Notes under the pieces: model-generated
The model's database searches: none
Told to the model about the DNA's origin: nothing
Seen by the model: only the letters and a program-made list of their open reading frames with translations
Shown: positions 21,765 to 31,721 of the stretch, piece after piece
Layout of the letters: each line of letters begins with the position of its first letter
How positions within the stretch are numbered: the first letter of the stretch is position 1
DNA from: Arcobacteraceae bacterium
GTDB taxonomy: Bacteria > Campylobacterota > Campylobacteria > Campylobacterales > Arcobacteraceae
Assembly: GCA_028687375.1 (NCBI GenBank)
Contig: JAQUAG010000004.1
Location: 1-40,885, forward strand
Direction: 5' to 3'
Length of the DNA: 40,885 bases
Program-made: the position numbers and the translations under genes

Positions 21765-24380
21765 ATGAAATTGCTCAATTATGTATATACAAGTTTTATT
21801 GGATTGGAAACTTTTATTCAAATGCATAATATACCAGATAGTAATTCTGTTCTAATCCAAATATTTCATTCAAATGAAAACATTAATGACGTTTATGCTA
21901 TTAAACAAGACTTAAAAATACTGCTTCCAAATGTTTCAATGATTTCAGCTTCTACATCAGGTGTTGTTAATAACGGTATGATTTTAGACCGATTTATTAC
22001 CTTATCATTTTCTATTTTTGAATACTCTACTACAAAATCAGCAAGCTATTGTCATATCTCTATTGATGATTTAATCGATAAAATCGGGAATGATTTAATA
22101 ACTGATAAAACAAAGCTTCTCCTTTGCTTTGCGAATACATTTTCTTTTTCAAGTGAAATTTTTTTAAAAAAAGTTACAGCTAGATATCCGAATCTTATAA
22201 TTGCTGGTGGAAATGGTGGTGATGATTTTAAATTTGAAAAATGCACTATTTTTTCACAAACTTGTAATGTTTGCGATGTTGCATTTGCTAGTATTGATTC
22301 TGATGTTTTAGAAGTAGAAACAAAATCACTCCTTAATTGGCATACAATAGGTAAGGAACTAATAGTTACAAAATCGAAAGGCAATCAAGTTTTTGAAATA
22401 GATAATAAAAATATTATCGATATTTATGAATACTATTTAGGAAAAGAGATAGCTTCAAATATACTTGGTCATGGTATTGAATTTCCACTTATTTTTAAAG
22501 ATTTTGATACAAATGTTGCAAGAGCCCCTATTGCAGTACATGAAGATAATTCAATCACTTTTGCTGGAGATATACCTGAAGGGACAAAGGTTAAATTTGG
22601 CTATGCTGATGTTGAATTTATAGAAGAATTTAATAAAAAAAATCTATTAAATGAGTATAAATATAAAAATGAAGCTGTATATATTTATACTTGTAGTGCT
22701 AGAAGAAGTATGCTTGGTAATTATCTAAATGATGAGATGTCTATCATTAATACTATTGGTCCAACAGCTGGATTTGTAACTTATGGAGAGTTTTTTCATG
22801 ATAAAAAAAGTTGTTCAAATAACCTTTTAAATATTACAACTACTTATCTTGTTTTAAATGAAACAAAAAGTAAAGAGTTAATTTCAAATCATACGAACTA
22901 CACTACAAAAAAAGATAAAAAAGATATCACTCTTAAAGCTTTAACCACATTAATTTCAAAAACAAGTGAAGAGTTAGATGAAAGAAATTATTATCTTAAA
23001 CAATTCAAAGATGCAGTGAATCAATCTGCTATTTTTTCAGCAACAGATGAAAATGGGAAGATACTCTATGTTAATAAAAACTTTGAAACTATTTCAGGAT
23101 ACACAAGTGATGAACTTATAGGAAAATCACATAATATAGTTAGAAGTAAAGATATTTCAGACAATACTTTTAAAGAGATGTGGCAAACAATTAGAGGTGG
23201 TAATATTTGGAAGGGTCTTCTTAAGAATAATAGTAAATCAGGTAAACCATATTATGTTCTGTCTGAAATATCTCCAATATATAAAACTGATGGATCACTC
23301 AAAGAATATATTGGTATAAGAAATGATGTAACTGAACTTGAAGAGTACAAACATATACTTAAAAACGAGCTTGACCTTTCAAATCAAAACTTTGAAGAAA
23401 ATTTAAATTATACAAAACAATATGAAGATGCTATCAATAAAACAACAGCTATTTTAAAAACTGATACTAAGAATATTATCAAATATGTCAATCAAAAGTT
23501 TTGTGAACTTAGTGGTTATCATTTAGGGGAACTAATAGGGAAAAACTGCAAAGATATGCGTTCTTTGAAACATCAACAAGAGGATAAATGTGAAGAGATT
23601 GCAAAAAAACTTCAAGAGAGAAAGATAATACAAGAGAGACTTACAAATCAAACAAAAGACAGTCAAGAGTATACAGTAGAAAATCTCTTTTATCCTATTA
23701 TTAATTTAGAAGGAGATGTTATTGAACATCTCCAAATAATGTATGATTTAACAGAGATAATAGAGCTAAATGAAGAGATAATTAATACCCAAAAAGAGGT
23801 TGTTTTAACTATGGGTGCAATTGGAGAAACCAGAAGTAAAGAGACTGGACTTCATGTAAAAAGAGTTGCTGAATATTCATATTTGTTGGGAAAACTATGG
23901 GGACTTAATGAAGAAGATGCTTCACTACTCAAACAAGCAAGCCCAATGCATGATATAGGAAAAGTTGGTATTGCTGATAATATTCTCAATAAACCTGCAA
24001 AACTTACCTTTGAAGAATTTGAAATAATGAAAACTCATGCAGAGATAGGCTATGACATGCTAAAACATTCAAAAAGACCTATTTTAAAAGCTTCAGCAGT
24101 AGTAGCGATTTCCCATCATGAAAAATGGGATGGTAGTGGTTATCCAAAAGGACTAAAAGGTGAAAGAATCCCAATTTTTGGAAGAATTACGGCAATTGCC
24201 GATGTATTTGATGCTTTAGGGCATGATAGATGCTATAAAAAAGCGTGGCCTTTAGAGAATATTTTAGAACTTTTTAGAAATGAGAAAGGGAAACATTTTG
24301 ATCCACATCTTGTAGATTTATTTTTTGAAAATTTAGATAAATTTTTAGAGATTAGAGATTCTATGCAAGACCATTTTTAG
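21765..24380 (+). CDS. FIST-PAS-PAS-HD-GYP sensor, predicted c-di-GMP phosphodiesterase
   Basis: The 871-residue soluble protein has an N-terminal FIST ligand-sensing pair (about residues 30-370; LLLCFANTFSFS, IAGGNGGDDF, GPTAGFVTYGEFF). A first PAS lies at about 420-540 (GKILYVNKNFETISGYTSDE) and a second at about 555-680. A complete HD-GYP domain runs from about 690 to the end, with H729-D730 in SPMHDIGKVGIAD, HHEKWDGSG and G792-Y793-P794. HD-GYP domains with all these residues hydrolyse c-di-GMP. FIST domains are thought to bind small molecules such as amino acids. No receiver or membrane segment is seen, so the inputs are cytoplasmic. It is monocistronic, with argG 75 bases downstream. 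Confidence 0.9.
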   Translation: MKLLNYVYTSFIGLETFIQMHNIPDSNSVLIQIFHSNENINDVYAIKQDLKILLPNVSMISASTSGVVNNGMILDRFITLSFSIFEYSTTKSASYCHISIDDLIDKIGNDLITDKTKLLLCFANTFSFSSEIFLKKVTARYPNLIIAGGNGGDDFKFEKCTIFSQTCNVCDVAFASIDSDVLEVETKSLLNWHTIGKELIVTKSKGNQVFEIDNKNIIDIYEYYLGKEIASNILGHGIEFPLIFKDFDTNVARAPIAVHEDNSITFAGDIPEGTKVKFGYADVEFIEEFNKKNLLNEYKYKNEAVYIYTCSARRSMLGNYLNDEMSIINTIGPTAGFVTYGEFFHDKKSCSNNLLNITTTYLVLNETKSKELISNHTNYTTKKDKKDITLKALTTLISKTSEELDERNYYLKQFKDAVNQSAIFSATDENGKILYVNKNFETISGYTSDELIGKSHNIVRSKDISDNTFKEMWQTIRGGNIWKGLLKNNSKSGKPYYVLSEISPIYKTDGSLKEYIGIRNDVTELEEYKHILKNELDLSNQNFEENLNYTKQYEDAINKTTAILKTDTKNIIKYVNQKFCELSGYHLGELIGKNCKDMRSLKHQQEDKCEEIAKKLQERKIIQERLTNQTKDSQEYTVENLFYPIINLEGDVIEHLQIMYDLTEIIELNEEIINTQKEVVLTMGAIGETRSKETGLHVKRVAEYSYLLGKLWGLNEEDASLLKQASPMHDIGKVGIADNILNKPAKLTFEEFEIMKTHAEIGYDMLKHSKRPILKASAVVAISHHEKWDGSGYPKGLKGERIPIFGRITAIADVFDALGHDRCYKKAWPLENILELFRNEKGKHFDPHLVDLFFENLDKFLEIRDSMQDHF

Positions 24381-25763: not shown

Positions 25764-27296
25764 ATGGCTCTTATGAAATTTGCGAAAAAAGAGAAAAATG
25801 ACATAACTCTTTTTGATGAAAAATGGAAAATTTTAATTGTTGATGATGAGATTGAAGTTCATAATATCACTAAAAGTGTGTTAAAAGATTTTGTCTTTGA
25901 AAATAAACAATTAGAATTTTTTAGTGCCTATAGTGGAAAAGAAGCAATTGAACTTGTAAAAAACACTCCTGATATTGCACTTATTTTACTTGATGTTGTT
26001 ATGGAAACCGATGATGCAGGTCTTAGAGTTGTTGAAACAGTAAGAAATGAACTTTATAATCAAAAAGTAAGAATTATTTTACGAACTGGTCAACCAGGAC
26101 TAGCTCCTCAAAGAGATATTATTTTAAATTATGACATCAATGACTACAAAGAGAAAACTGAGCTATCTTCTATGCAACTTTTTACAACCGTTGTTGCTTC
26201 ACTTCGCTCTTATAGGGACTTAAGTATCATTGAACAAAATAAAGTTGGTTTACAAAAAATAATCACAGCATCAAAATCAATTTTTAAAATCAATTCACTC
26301 AAACTTTTTGTAGAGGGTGTATTAACCCAGTTGGTAAGTATTTTAAATCTCAGTCATGACACAAATCACATCAAAGCAAGTGATGCTTTTTTTGCTATTT
26401 TAAAAGAGGATGAAGATAGGAATAAGTTTGAAATTTTAGCAACTATTGGTAAATTTAAAGATAGTGATAACTTTAATATAATGACACCAAAAGCACTAGA
26501 TTTATTGGATAAAGCTTTTGTCGAAAAAAATAGTTTTTTTGAAAATGATTCTTATGTTGGAATTTTTAGTTCAAGTAGTAATAATCATATTTTTCTATAT
26601 CTTGAAGGATGTTCAAATCTCAATGAAAATGACAGAGATTTTATTAAACTTTTCTCAAGTAACATCTCAATTGCATATGAAAATATCAATCTTCATAATG
26701 AAATCATTGATACTCAAAAAGAGATTATTACACGATTTAGTTCTGTTGTTGAAAATCGTTCTAAAGAGGTAGCTGACCATGTTAATAGAGTTGCAAAAAT
26801 ATCTTATATTTTAGCAATTGCTTATGGGTTAGATGAAGATACTGCAAATCTTATAGAGATGGCAAGTCCAATGCATGATATTGGAAAAGTTGCTATTTCA
26901 GATACGATTTTATTAAAACCAGGGGAACTTACACATGAGGAATTTGAAATCATTAAAGAGCATTCAAGTATTGGGTATCATATCCTTTCATGTGGACAAA
27001 GAGAGATACTTCAAGCTGCTTCAATTATAGCGTATGAACATCATGAAAAATGGAATGGCACAGGTTATCCTAGAAATTTAAAAGAGGAAGAGATTCATAT
27101 ATATGGACGAATAACCGCTATTGCTGATGTTTATGATGCCTTAACTTACAGAAGAGTTTATAAAGATGCTTGGCCACAAAGTGAAGTTTTAGATTATATT
27201 AAAGCTGAAAAAGGAAAATCTTTTGAACCTAAACTTGTAGATATTTTTTTTGAGAATTTAGACCAAATACAACAAACTCATACACATGCAAATTAA
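25764..27296 (+). CDS. Response regulator with DUF3369 and HD-GYP output
   Basis: The 510-residue protein has a receiver domain (residues 24-150) with acidic pocket D33-D34-E35 and phospho-acceptor D77 in LLDVVMETDDAG. A DUF3369-like GAF-type region follows to about 310 (FKINSLKLFVEGVLTQLVSIL). A complete HD-GYP domain carries H371-D372 in SPMHDIGKVAISD, EHHEKWNGTG and G434-Y-P. It should degrade c-di-GMP when phosphorylated or dephosphorylated. The gene overlaps the histidine kinase start by 11 bases, and a solute-binding protein gene follows, so this is a self-contained sensing unit. The ATG at 25764 has GGAG 10 bases upstream; a second ATG at residue 4 is possible. Confidence 0.92.
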   Translation: MALMKFAKKEKNDITLFDEKWKILIVDDEIEVHNITKSVLKDFVFENKQLEFFSAYSGKEAIELVKNTPDIALILLDVVMETDDAGLRVVETVRNELYNQKVRIILRTGQPGLAPQRDIILNYDINDYKEKTELSSMQLFTTVVASLRSYRDLSIIEQNKVGLQKIITASKSIFKINSLKLFVEGVLTQLVSILNLSHDTNHIKASDAFFAILKEDEDRNKFEILATIGKFKDSDNFNIMTPKALDLLDKAFVEKNSFFENDSYVGIFSSSSNNHIFLYLEGCSNLNENDRDFIKLFSSNISIAYENINLHNEIIDTQKEIITRFSSVVENRSKEVADHVNRVAKISYILAIAYGLDEDTANLIEMASPMHDIGKVAISDTILLKPGELTHEEFEIIKEHSSIGYHILSCGQREILQAASIIAYEHHEKWNGTGYPRNLKEEEIHIYGRITAIADVYDALTYRRVYKDAWPQSEVLDYIKAEKGKSFEPKLVDIFFENLDQIQQTHTHAN

Positions 27297-28758
27297 AAAT
27301 ATCAAGCTTCATTCTGTTTCAAAACAGCTTTTAAAAGTTGTTTTTGCTTTTTATTTTTCTATCACTATTATCATAACCCTTATCCATTTTACTATTGAAT
27401 ATTATCATACAAAAGAGAATATCAATAATGAACTTAAAATGGTTTCTCAAACATTTATGCAATCTATACAAGGGGCTTTATGGAATTTTGATATGATACA
27501 AGTTAAATCAATTACTTCTGGAGCATTACAATTACCCTCTGTTTTAAGTATTAAAATTTTTGATAAAAATACAAACCAAACCATATACAATATTCAAAAA
27601 CCCAATTTTGATTTGTCAAGTCAAGGTGTTTTTTCATATAGTCAAGAGTTGTACCATACAACATTAAAAAATGAAACAGTGTATGTAGGAACTATTCAGT
27701 ATTTTAGTAATCACAATATCGTCATAGAAAGGGTAAAACTTAGTTTTTTTATCATCCTTTTTAACTCTATATTAAAAAGTTTAATTTTGACAATATTATT
27801 TATTTGGGCTTTTAATAAATATCTTACTAAACCCCTAGAAAAAATTACAAATGATATAAAAAATATCGATTTGCATCATTTAAAAAATCATAAAACTATA
27901 AGTGTTGATACTACAAAGAAAGATGAATTAACTTTTTTAAGTATTGCTTTTAATGATATGCTTAAAAACTTTGATGAAAAATTAAATATTATTCAAGAAA
28001 CAAATAAACATTTAATAGAATCTGAAAAAATGGCTGCATTAGGTGGAATGGTTGCTGGAATTTCTCATGAGATAAATACACCTGTTGGGATTGCACTCAC
28101 AGGGATCACTTATTTACAAGAACAAACAATAAATATCAAAAAACTTTATGAAGAGGAAAATATGAGTGAGGAAGATTTTTTACATTATCTCGATGATGCA
28201 AACACTTTAAATAACTCTATTCAGATTAATCTTCAAAAAGCAGCTTCTTTGATAAATAGTTTTAAAAAAGTAGCCGTTGACCAAAGCAGTAATGAAGAGA
28301 GAAAAATAAATTTAAAAGAATATATTGAAGAGATTATTTTAAGTTTACATAGCAAAATCAAAAAAACCAATATTAGTATAGTGATTGATATAGAAGATAA
28401 TATACTCTTGACAACAAAACCAGGAGCTATCTCACAGATTATTACAAATCTAATTGCAAACTCACTAACCCATGGTTTTGAAAACCAACAAAGTGGTGAA
28501 ATCAAAATCACTGCTAAACTAGAAGAAAATAACTTACATCTTCGATATCAAGATGATGGCAAAGGTATCTCAAAAGATGTAGAACATAAAATATTTAATC
28601 CATTTTTCACAACCAATAGAGCAAATGGTGGAAGTGGTTTGGGGATGAGTATAGTGTTTAATTTAGTAACTACTGTATTATCTGGTGAAATTGATTTACA
28701 AAGTGAACTACATAAAGGGATAATATTTGATATTATTATTCCAATACAAAAAGGTTAA
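27286..28758 (+). CDS. Membrane sensor histidine kinase
   Basis: The 490-residue protein has membrane helices at about residues 18-38 and 150-172, with a periplasmic sensor domain of about 110 residues between them. A HAMP-like linker (TKPLEKITNDIKNIDL) follows. The phospho-acceptor is H261 in GISHEINTPVGIALTG. The ATPase domain shows N box NLIANSLTHGF, G1 DDGKGIS, F box FNPFFTTNR and G2 GGSGLGMSI. It overlaps the response regulator/HD-GYP gene and is followed 3 bases later by a solute-binding protein, the likely partner for ligand detection in the periplasm. No good ribosome site precedes its start, which fits translational coupling. Confidence 0.92.
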   Translation: MQIKNIKLHSVSKQLLKVVFAFYFSITIIITLIHFTIEYYHTKENINNELKMVSQTFMQSIQGALWNFDMIQVKSITSGALQLPSVLSIKIFDKNTNQTIYNIQKPNFDLSSQGVFSYSQELYHTTLKNETVYVGTIQYFSNHNIVIERVKLSFFIILFNSILKSLILTILFIWAFNKYLTKPLEKITNDIKNIDLHHLKNHKTISVDTTKKDELTFLSIAFNDMLKNFDEKLNIIQETNKHLIESEKMAALGGMVAGISHEINTPVGIALTGITYLQEQTINIKKLYEEENMSEEDFLHYLDDANTLNNSIQINLQKAASLINSFKKVAVDQSSNEERKINLKEYIEEIILSLHSKIKKTNISIVIDIEDNILLTTKPGAISQIITNLIANSLTHGFENQQSGEIKITAKLEENNLHLRYQDDGKGISKDVEHKIFNPFFTTNRANGGSGLGMSIVFNLVTTVLSGEIDLQSELHKGIIFDIIIPIQKG

Positions 28759-28761
28759 TAG

Positions 28762-29481
28762 ATGAATATTTTTAAATTATTATTACTTTCTTTATTATTT
28801 ATGAATATCTCTTATGGATTAGAGTTAATGTCAGAAGATTATCCGCCATATAACTATCCAAATAAAGATGGAAATCCAGAGGGAATCTCTATTGATATCG
28901 TAAGAGAAATTATCAAAAAAACAGGTGATAAAGATAATATTACTATCTTACCTTGGTCTAGGTCTTACAAATACATTCAAGAAAAAAAAGGACAAGTTTT
29001 ATTTGTAATGACAAAAACAAAAGAGAGAGAAAACCTTTTTAAATGGGTTGGTCCTATTGCTTCAAATAATTGGGTTTTATTTGCAAAAAAAAACTCTAAG
29101 ATAAAAATAAATTCCCTAGAAGAATTAAAAAAATCAAACTATATAATAGGAACATACAATGATGACGCATGTGAACTATTTTTAAAAAAGAATCATTTCG
29201 TAAATATTGCTTCAGTTGCAGATGATACTTTAAATGTAAAAAAACTTTTTAATAATAGAATCGATTTTTGGATAGTTGGTGAATATCAAGGTATTTTAAA
29301 AGCTAAAAGACTAAATCTCCATAAAGAGATTAAAAAAGTTTTTGATGTTAAACAAACTGAACTTTATATCGCTTTTTCAAAAGATGTTTCAGATAAAATA
29401 ATATCAAAATGGCAACGTGAATTAGACATATTAAAAGAAAATGAAAAATATCAAGCGATACTTGATAAATATCTAAAATAA
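28762..29481 (+). CDS. Periplasmic solute-binding protein, family 3 (sensor-linked)
   Basis: The 239-residue protein has a signal peptide (MNIFKLLLLSLLFMNISYGLE) and the extracellular solute-binding family 3 layout. EDYPPYNYPNKDGNPEGISI at the mature N-terminus and a central KVKKLFNNRIDFWIVGE-type hinge region are recognisable. Such proteins bind amino acids or similar small solutes. No ABC permease or ATPase is encoded nearby. It sits directly behind a histidine kinase and HD-GYP response regulator, so a sensory role is more likely than transport. The ligand is unknown. Confidence 0.85.
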   Translation: MNIFKLLLLSLLFMNISYGLELMSEDYPPYNYPNKDGNPEGISIDIVREIIKKTGDKDNITILPWSRSYKYIQEKKGQVLFVMTKTKERENLFKWVGPIASNNWVLFAKKNSKIKINSLEELKKSNYIIGTYNDDACELFLKKNHFVNIASVADDTLNVKKLFNNRIDFWIVGEYQGILKAKRLNLHKEIKKVFDVKQTELYIAFSKDVSDKIISKWQRELDILKENEKYQAILDKYLK

Positions 29482-29490
29482 GGGGTAAAA

Positions 29491-30030
29491 ATGATTTTAA
29501 AATTTAAAAAATGGTTTCCAAAGATTAGTAAAAAAGCTTGGGTTGCTCCAAGTGCTGATGTGATTGGGAATGTAAAAATAGGAAAAGATAGCTCTGTTTG
29601 GTTTGGAGTAGTTATAAGAGGCGATGTTCATAAGATAAGAATAGGAAAACGAACATCTATCCAAGACCTCTCTATGATTCATGTCACTCACTACAAAAAC
29701 GAAGATATGAGTGATGGAAATCCAACTATTATAGGGGATGATGTAACTGTTGGGCATAAAGTTATGCTTCATGGATGTACAATCGAAAATGGTTGTTTGA
29801 TTGGTATGAGTGCTACTATTTTAGATGGTGCAGTGATTGGGGAAGGGAGTATCGTTGGAGCTCATTCATTAGTCACTTCAAATAAAGTTTTTCCACCACA
29901 TAGTTTGATTATGGGAAGCCCAGCTAAGGTTGTTAAAACTTTAAGTGAAGAGGAAGTTGCAAACTTAATAGCACACGCTGGACGATATGTGAAATTTAAA
30001 GAGGAATATCACACAAGTTCACAGGCTTAA
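29491..30030 (+). CDS. Gamma-class carbonic anhydrase family protein
   Basis: The 179-residue protein is a left-handed beta-helix built of hexapeptide repeats (VGNVKIGKDSSVWFGVVIRG-like pattern) followed by a short C-terminal helix. Candidate zinc ligands are H64 or H67 in MIHVTHYK together with H89 and H94 in VGHKVMLHGC, arranged as in gamma carbonic anhydrases. Many family members (YrdA, PaaY) have weak or no anhydrase activity, so activity is not certain. The ATG has GGGG 7 bases upstream and lies 9 bases after the solute-binding gene, though the functional link to that operon is unclear. Confidence 0.88.
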   Translation: MILKFKKWFPKISKKAWVAPSADVIGNVKIGKDSSVWFGVVIRGDVHKIRIGKRTSIQDLSMIHVTHYKNEDMSDGNPTIIGDDVTVGHKVMLHGCTIENGCLIGMSATILDGAVIGEGSIVGAHSLVTSNKVFPPHSLIMGSPAKVVKTLSEEEVANLIAHAGRYVKFKEEYHTSSQA

Positions 30031-30040
30031 CTTTTTTTGA

Positions 30041-30065
30041 GAAACTGATTTTATTTTTCAGTTTC
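30041..30065. other. Hairpin between carbonic anhydrase and ycaO genes
   Basis: A perfect 8-base inverted repeat (GAAACTGA, 9-base loop TTTTATTTT, TCAGTTTC) lies 11 bases after the carbonic anhydrase stop. There is no T-run after the stem on either strand, so it is not a textbook rho-independent terminator. It could be a weak terminator, an RNA-stabilising 3' end, or chance. Confidence 0.45.
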
Positions 30066-30101
30066 ATCTTCCAAAAATCTAACACGAAAGAAAAATACAC
30101 T

Positions 30102-31721
30102 ATGCAACTCTTAGGAAAAAATGCCCCACTTGAAACTTCACTTGCCAATATGTCAAATGTCCTTACAAAACTTGACATTCAAACAACTTTATCGACTGAA
30201 CTACATCCTTTAAAAAACTGTTTTTCTGTAAATCTATCATTTGATGGGGCTAAAAACTACATCTACTCAAATGGAAAAGGGATAAACCACGAAGCAAGTC
30301 TTGCTAGTGCTTATGGGGAATTTATCGAAAGATTACAAACAAACAATTTTTTTAGTGATTTTTATCTTCCAAATCGCTCCCATTTTCCTGATGAGATTTT
30401 GTTTGAAGTGGATGATTTTTTAGATACAGCATTTGATAAAAAATTGGCAAAATTTTACAATCCAAATGGGGAGCTAAGTGGTGAAGATTTAATCGATTTT
30501 AATAGTGAGCATGAAGATAAAATAGTCACTTTACCATTTTTAAATCTTACGACAAATAAAAAAGTAAATATCCCACAAAACCTTATAAGTAATCTGTATG
30601 TAAGTAACGGACTAGCGAGTGGAAACACACCAAATGAAGCAAAAGTACAAGCAATGAGCGAAATTATTGAACGATTTGTAAAAATAAAAGTTATCAAAGA
30701 GGGACTCAGTTTACCCAAATTTGATGATGCAATAATTCAAAAGTTTGAAAAGTTAAACGATGATATAAAAACTTTAAGAGAATTTGGCTATAAAATTGAA
30801 GTACTTGATGCAACTCTTGGTGGAGTTTATCCAGTTGTTGCAATATCACTTATCAATCCAAAAAACTCTACCCTTTTTGTCTCTTTTGGTGCTCACCCTA
30901 TTTTGGAAGTGGCACTTGAAAGGACTATGACAGAACTTATGCAAGGGAGAGGTTTAGATAAACTTGATAGTTTTGAAACTCCAACTTTTGATATAACTAT
31001 CGTAGATGATAGCTCAAATATCGAATCACACTTTATAGACTCAAACGGAAAGATTTGCTTTGGATTTTTAAGTGCTAAAAAAAGTTTTGATACAGTTCCT
31101 TGGAGATATGATGGGGTTAATAGCGATGATGAATATAAATTTTTAGTAGATATTTTACATAGTGAAAAAAGAGAGATACATTTGCGAGAATATGATTATT
31201 TAGGTTTTTATAGTTGCCAAATTATTGTCCCAAATTTTAGTGAAGTGTATCCGATAGATGATTTGATTTACAACAATAAAAATCAAGCGAAAATGATAAG
31301 AGATATGGTTTTAAATTTTCAAGAGTTTGACAGTGAAGATATTTTAAATGCAATTTTACCACTTGATAATTCGATTGATGTTGGAAAATATATCGGTGTA
31401 ATTTTTGAAAGTCCATTTACTATGCTTGAGTTCAAAGCTCAAATTCATATCTTACTTGATGAATTAGATGAAGCGAAAGAACTCTTATCTTATAGTGACC
31501 AAAAACTCTCAAAAGTGGTAAGTGAGATTATTATTATGGAGGGTGAAAACCTTGATTTTGATAATTTTAAAGAGGGGCTATTTGCTATATTTGGGGAAGA
31601 GATAGTTCAAAAAGCGATTCAAATAATTGCAGCAGAAGAGTATTTAATAGATACAACTTTGAAAGCAGAATATCTCTCTATTTTAGCTCTTTATGATGAA
31701 CTTTCAAAATATAAAAAATAA
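30102..31721 (+). CDS. ycaO: YcaO-domain protein (stand-alone, E. coli YcaO type)
   Basis: The 539-residue protein opens with GKNAPLETSLANM and ELHPLKNCFSVNLSFDGA and has the ATP-binding glutamate motifs of YcaO proteins (AYGEFIERLQT; EAKVQAMSEIIERFVK; ALERTMTELMQGRG). The C-terminal extension of about 150 helical residues matches the stand-alone E. coli YcaO group rather than azoline-peptide cyclodehydratases. In E. coli it is linked to beta-methylthiolation of ribosomal protein S12, although that link is indirect. No precursor peptide or partner protein gene is near. The stop codon lies inside the left arm of the terminator at 31717-31743. Confidence 0.88.
   Translation: MQLLGKNAPLETSLANMSNVLTKLDIQTTLSTELHPLKNCFSVNLSFDGAKNYIYSNGKGINHEASLASAYGEFIERLQTNNFFSDFYLPNRSHFPDEILFEVDDFLDTAFDKKLAKFYNPNGELSGEDLIDFNSEHEDKIVTLPFLNLTTNKKVNIPQNLISNLYVSNGLASGNTPNEAKVQAMSEIIERFVKIKVIKEGLSLPKFDDAIIQKFEKLNDDIKTLREFGYKIEVLDATLGGVYPVVAISLINPKNSTLFVSFGAHPILEVALERTMTELMQGRGLDKLDSFETPTFDITIVDDSSNIESHFIDSNGKICFGFLSAKKSFDTVPWRYDGVNSDDEYKFLVDILHSEKREIHLREYDYLGFYSCQIIVPNFSEVYPIDDLIYNNKNQAKMIRDMVLNFQEFDSEDILNAILPLDNSIDVGKYIGVIFESPFTMLEFKAQIHILLDELDEAKELLSYSDQKLSKVVSEIIIMEGENLDFDNFKEGLFAIFGEEIVQKAIQIIAAEEYLIDTTLKAEYLSILALYDELSKYKK

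Follow-up and report, generated by a model that had tools for sequence, protein, structure and literature searches.

Periplasmic solute-binding proteins (SBPs) that drive sensor kinases and SBPs that control cyclic di-GMP (c-di-GMP) are both already known (PMC9602780, PMC8846402, PMC9993111). In the NspS-MbaA system of Vibrio cholerae, also present in Sinorhizobium meliloti, a transport-independent SBP directs a membrane receptor to alter c-di-GMP (PMC9993111), and control of c-di-GMP enzymes was described for the arginine SBP ArtI with STM1987 in Salmonella and for RmcA of Pseudomonas, which includes an SBP_bac_3 domain (PMC8846402). The partners of the proven SBP-kinase couples (LuxP-LuxQ, TorT-TorS and others) are gene neighbours in 10 of 11 cases (PMC11113362). 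On the output side, the V. cholerae protein VCA0210, with DUF3369 and HD-GYP domains, hydrolyses c-di-GMP, and its expression raises motility (PMC4212101). The present analysis concerns an operon in a 40,885-nucleotide stretch of an Arcobacteraceae genome (assembly GCA_028687375.1, contig JAQUAG010000004.1, positions 1 to 40,885 of the forward strand; below, the window), where genes for a receiver-DUF3369-HD-GYP response regulator, a sensor histidine kinase and a family 3 SBP follow each other in this order on the same strand (Table 1). The operon probably encodes a three-component system for the control of c-di-GMP, in which the liganded SBP docks on the kinase.

The proposed signal path would start with the capture of a small molecule by the SBP in the periplasm. 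The SBP, either ligand-bound or ligand-free, would then dock on the LapD/CHASE5-like domain of the kinase dimer and shift its kinase/phosphatase balance in one direction or the other. Phosphate would move from H261 of the kinase to D77 of the regulator, and DUF3369 would relay the phosphorylation state to the HD-GYP domain, altering the rate of c-di-GMP breakdown and possibly, as a consequence, motility or attachment.

The periplasmic domain of the kinase recurs beside SBPs in other genomes. Homologues of the window SBP in relatives adjoin histidine kinases at seven loci, hybrid kinases at three and a chemoreceptor at one; one of the SBP-adjacent kinases (L098) has no window-type domain. A sensor profile built from SBP-adjacent receptors, with the window and its sister genome left out, matched the window kinase (E 5e-12) and the kinase of genome G025 (E 3e-14) and no other control sensor in a 21-sequence test. 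The domain profile run over 60 genomes gave 15 held-out matches at E < 1e-6, ten of which stand beside an SBP or are fused to one: six have a separate adjacent SBP gene and four carry fused SBP domains. Some of these SBPs match Pfam families weakly (E 0.0015 to 0.02), one was recognized via TIGR02285, another through homology (L269 to L268), and one is a fragment where its contig ends. In the control set, made up of kinases that share the core but have another sensor, an SBP was present in 7 of 30 cases (four adjacent, of other families, PF04392 and Peripla_BP_6, and three fused), a difference with p 0.008 for any SBP and p 0.0002 when only type II SBPs were counted (3 of the 30 controls). An additional domain match, in G049 (E 9e-5), lies behind an SBP of the phosphonate type. 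Beyond the home phylum the pairing was found with chemoreceptors in one Desulfobacter and one Pseudomonas genome, with a kinase in a Nitrospirota genome and with a hybrid kinase in an Olavius-associated deltaproteobacterium, and also in one Desulfobacterales genome. When a broad collection was scanned with the binding-protein profile, most of the loci returned were from Pseudomonas; the gene there was often stand-alone or in tandem with no clear partner within 5 kb, and the pairing is therefore not valid for the entire SBP subfamily.

The SBPs and the periplasmic domains also diverge together. Their distance matrices correlated with r 0.72 (Mantel p 0.0002, 23 adjacent pairs) and, once near-duplicates were removed, with r 0.47 (p 0.0004), albeit vertical descent inflates such correlations. 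For the 15 pairs with a recognizable kinase, the partial correlation between SBP and domain given the kinase core was 0.59 versus 0.31 between SBP and kinase core given the domain, the control in this comparison being another part of the same receptor.

The domain matched CHASE5 (PF17149) over kinase residues 42-112 with 21.8 bits, which is below the curated cut-off of 27, and it appears to be related to this family without being assigned to it; the HisKA and HAMP matches of the kinase were likewise below the Pfam threshold. In the model of the kinase N-terminus the first transmembrane (TM) segment lies in a long helix (residues 11-66) and the second within residues 143-192, enclosing a small alpha-beta domain (one helix, four strands; residues ~66-142). 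Among solved structures the closest to the sensor model was WalK (Z 12.9), near-tied with CitA and with the LapD-type output domain CdgS9 (Z 12.2, 118 residues aligned, 3.5 A), followed by Cache/PDC sensors and LuxQ (Z 8-9), among them LuxQ from its LuxP complex (Z 8.6). Periplasmic domains of the LapD and YfiN type bind a periplasmic protein partner. The modelled fold is compatible with docking rather than proof of it, because similar folds bind either protein partners or small ligands. Searches of the open-access literature on CHASE5 or CHASE8 together with SBPs gave nothing relevant.

Several points weigh against the proposed path. Folds of the PDC/Cache type that lie close to the model are direct binders of citrate, amino acids or urea. 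Four of the 15 held-out matches, besides one neighboured by a YfiR-family gene, are without an SBP partner, so that the domain is not exclusively an SBP dock. The receptors behind the profile were picked because they adjoin SBPs, and loci that are related do not count as independent; moreover, two adjacent SBP/kinase pairs of Pseudomonas aeruginosa failed in direct binding tests (PMC11113362). At the output end, the GYP loop of the regulator (HHEKWNGTGYP) has N431 (NG) at the position where most have D (DG), the N being shared by one relative. The folds, the partnerless matches and the adjacent pairs that fail to bind would all suit a kinase that senses a small ligand or a membrane/redox cue directly, with the SBP as a co-expressed passenger or active elsewhere. 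Such direct sensing is nevertheless unlikely, since the domain tracks SBP genes over kinase, hybrid kinase, chemoreceptor and GGDEF-EAL outputs and over phyla, and its co-variation with the SBP exceeds what the kinase core accounts for.

The SBP could also act as an antagonist or sequestration factor in the manner of YfiR on YfiN, its apo form holding the kinase in one state and the ligand freeing it. One of the 15 held-out matches (G040) is a chemoreceptor with the same domain adjoining a YfiR-family gene, and one held-out match scores weakly to CHASE8, the YfiN domain; this mode of action, itself a variant of the docking path proposed above, seems quite improbable.

The third issue is transport. 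The window SBP matched SBP_bac_3 (PF00497) with 68.1 bits (cut-off 26.4) and has an N-terminal hydrophobic signal stretch, and its model (predicted local distance difference test score, pLDDT, 92) shows a two-lobe fold with Z 24-27 to solved family members. Its best structural match was 3h7m (Z 27.4), an SBP-like sensor domain from a histidine kinase, with amino-acid binding proteins ranking just behind and the periplasmic-binding-protein (PBP) domain of RmcA giving Z 24.6. A permease of the HisM/GlnP type (TIGR01726) was absent from the window genome, which is 99.67% complete, while the same search was positive in 11 of 14 control genomes. All but two of the 13 SBP_bac_3 matches in the window genome belong to multidomain proteins of ~500-1200 aa, in several of which a kinase core was detectable; the exceptions are the window protein and a 259-aa protein on contig C19, whose gene precedes that of a 799-aa histidine kinase by 15 bp. 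This organism appears to reserve its family 3 binding domains for signalling. A transport role of the window SBP is unlikely, because there is no matching permease and the SBP_bac_3 domains are confined to large proteins or to kinase-adjacent ones, and the SBP most likely serves the kinase. Transport as its main function was rejected on the absence of the matching permease. That it feeds an ATP-binding cassette (ABC) importer encoded elsewhere, with secondary or no contact to the kinase, is highly improbable: SBP_bac_3 proteins usually serve such importers and the genome has eight PF00528-type ABC permeases, but TIGR01726, the type pairing with SBP_bac_3, is missing, the contexts of the eight read, from their neighbours alone, as molybdate, phosphate, polyamine, oligopeptide and nitrate/taurine types, and the homologues in relatives adjoin receptors.

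A first-pass annotation of the window had noted no transporter components near these genes, had proposed that the SBP works for the kinase and had named a cognate permease elsewhere that uses this SBP as one of two findings that would speak against it. The interval encodes no transporter, and a permease of the matching type was absent genome-wide; together with the recurrence of the domain near SBPs and their co-variation this agrees with an SBP that probably serves the kinase rather than a transporter, and that part of the interpretation was retained. Its identification of the external ligand as a nutrient was unsupported. Profile alignment showed that the carboxylate-holding Arg of amino-acid binding proteins is kept as R89, while their alpha-amino-holding Asp aligns with G173, leaving the Arg-Asp pair incomplete, so that an ordinary L-amino acid ligand is not to be assumed. 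As a side observation, the second stand-alone SBP_bac_3 locus of this genome (L115:6001-9194, contig C19) adjoins genes reading as ParA, ParB, DnaB and Rep and is possibly plasmid-borne.

The other half of the system, the kinase/regulator pair, has a wider distribution. DUF3369 was present in 18 of 100 related genomes, and all 13 DUF3369-HD-GYP genes inspected, the window's included, adjoin or diverge from a kinase with ~50% or higher core identity to that of the window. The sensors of these kinases vary (PilJ/PAS, the zinc-binding CZB, Tll0287, Cache, GAF, Amt, SSF or unassigned), and the pair is, on this comparison, a widespread module with sensors swapped among relatives. The window-type periplasmic domain occurs only in three of the 13 pairs, those of the window, the sister genome G001 and G025, where a divergent 288-aa binding protein is encoded 11 bp upstream of the kinase. 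An adjacent SBP gene was found in 3/3 pairs with this domain versus 0/10 others (Fisher p 0.0035, the window and G001 sharing ancestry). The ammonium transporter (Amt) fused to a histidine kinase at L090:4680-8571 (G037:C126), adjoining a DUF3369-HD-GYP regulator, makes a possible ammonium-to-c-di-GMP switch. At L091:4406-9140 a kinase with an SSF (sodium:solute symporter) N-terminus is divergent from a DUF3369-HD-GYP regulator gene, as is a 982-aa kinase of similar layout at L094:2340-7093.

The same input pair was also found with another HD-GYP output. In at least seven genomes of another family (f20), which we infer to be Sulfurospirillum-like, the first gene encodes a hybrid kinase that bears the window-type periplasmic domain; next come a receiver-HD-GYP regulator lacking DUF3369 (at L287 split into two overlapping frames) and then a homologue of the window SBP. 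This operon is analogous, not orthologous, to that of the window: the kinase and the regulator are of other types, and what coincides is the input pair and the HD-GYP output. Two of the four fused held-out proteins have particular architectures. The one at L274:103-1986 (G023:C87) unites the periplasmic domain, SBP_bac_3 and GGDEF, and is a natural fusion of the proposed partners; the other (L279:1-6024, G015:C24) is a very large receptor with an open frame of 2919 aa and ~7 tandem SBP_bac_3 domains followed by PAS. The YfiR-neighboured chemoreceptor (L271:723-5441, G040:C114) is divergent from both the YfiR-family gene and a TonB-receptor-like gene.

A broader proposal, which is tentative and slightly short of an even chance in our judgement, is that the window domain is one copy of a widespread docking domain, so far unrecognized in this function, for stand-alone type II SBPs of several families. 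This domain would have been shuffled among kinases, hybrid kinases, chemoreceptors and GGDEF/EAL enzymes and would have come together with HD-GYP output on two or more occasions, through kinases and regulators that are not orthologous, so that its presence would predict SBP-stimulated receptors from sequence. Few SBP-receptor couples have been proven and adjacency alone misleads (PMC11113362), and a periplasmic domain that accompanies SBPs would offer a sequence-based means to predict the receptors using them. In the window operon, a compact example, an SBP-receptor couple of this kind would govern the breakdown of c-di-GMP through a phosphorelay, and the lack of a competing transporter in its genome makes it a clean test case.

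The regulator belongs to the receiver-DUF3369-HD-GYP class by its domain order, its phospho-acceptor and receiver residues, and its metal ligands and GYP motif. In a comparison of 13 related regulators the receiver residues D77, D27, D28, T108 and K131 and the HD-GYP metal ligands H339, H371-D372, H400, H426-H427 and D455 were invariant, with the GYP motif at 434-436. The first-pass annotation had placed DUF3369 between receiver and HD-GYP, in agreement with the Pfam order, and had correctly picked D77 of the regulator and H261 of the kinase as phosphotransfer residues. Its range for the periplasmic domain of the kinase (~39-150) is about right by the boundaries of the model, and the genes do overlap or lie 3 bases apart, as it had stated (Table 1).

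Table 1. Genes and domains of the three-gene operon, in window coordinates
Feature	Position	Strand	Details
Response regulator, receiver - DUF3369 - HD-GYP phosphodiesterase (predicted)	25764..27296	+	510 aa
Receiver domain, residues 23-131, phospho-acceptor D77	25830..26156	+	Pfam PF00072 34.6 bits
DUF3369 linker domain, residues 143-314	26190..26705	+	PF11849 149 bits; genome's sole copy
HD-GYP domain, residues 326-491, metal ligands intact	26739..27236	+	PF13487 (HD_5) 100 bits
Sensor histidine kinase	27286..28758	+	490 aa; 11-bp overlap with regulator gene
Periplasmic CHASE5/LapD-like domain between two TM helices, residues ~39-150, putative binding-protein dock	27400..27735	+	Sub-threshold CHASE5, profile, model and fold matches
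Kinase core, H261 + HATPase, residues 252-490	28039..28755	+	PF02518 (HATPase_c) 72 bits; H261
Periplasmic SBP, family 3	28762..29481	+	239 aa; 3-bp gap to kinase gene

The three-gene set is kept in one second genome of the same genus, the sister G001, with proteins 72-85% identical. In both genomes it is followed by a gamma-carbonic anhydrase gene, which in the window starts 9 bp past the SBP gene, so the run of close genes goes on (window 29491-31721, plus strand: gamma-carbonic anhydrase, then a YcaO protein); the anhydrase may be co-transcribed with the operon without a functional link to it. Two genes 5' of the operon, a FIST_N - FIST_C - PAS - PAS - HD-GYP protein (window 21765-24380, plus strand) reads as a NosP-like sensor of the nitric-oxide/haem type fused to a c-di-GMP phosphodiesterase domain. 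Extensions of the functional unit to this gene (21765) and to argG were considered and dropped, because the sister genome, whose contig starts ~1 kb before argG, shows no FIST neighbour, and because another gene lies between argG and the set. A promoter/terminator scan of the operon gave sites no more numerous than in shuffled sequence.

Compared with the known systems, the window operon resembles NspS-MbaA in its presumed path from an SBP through a membrane receptor to c-di-GMP, in contrast to which, however, NspS is PotD-like and MbaA a one-piece GGDEF-EAL receptor, while here an SBP_bac_3 protein would act via a kinase and an HD-GYP regulator. With the LuxP-LuxQ and TorT-TorS couples it shares an SBP gene adjoining the kinase gene and a periplasmic sensor of the PAS/PDC type; the SBP family and the sensor subfamily are different, and the predicted output is c-di-GMP hydrolysis, not transcription or a quorum relay. 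In the model, the small alpha-beta domain between two TM helices is similar to that of LapD and of YfiN, the partner of YfiR, although the partners there are LapG or YfiR and not binding proteins. ArtI differs in acting with a dCache diguanylate cyclase and RmcA in having its SBP fused. The regulator has the same domain order as VCA0210 and other receiver-DUF3369-HD-GYP regulators, for which no SBP partner is described; in relatives of the window the paired kinases bear other sensors. As far as the searched open-access literature goes, both the wiring from an SBP through a kinase to DUF3369-HD-GYP and a periplasmic domain that accompanies SBPs across outputs and phyla are new.

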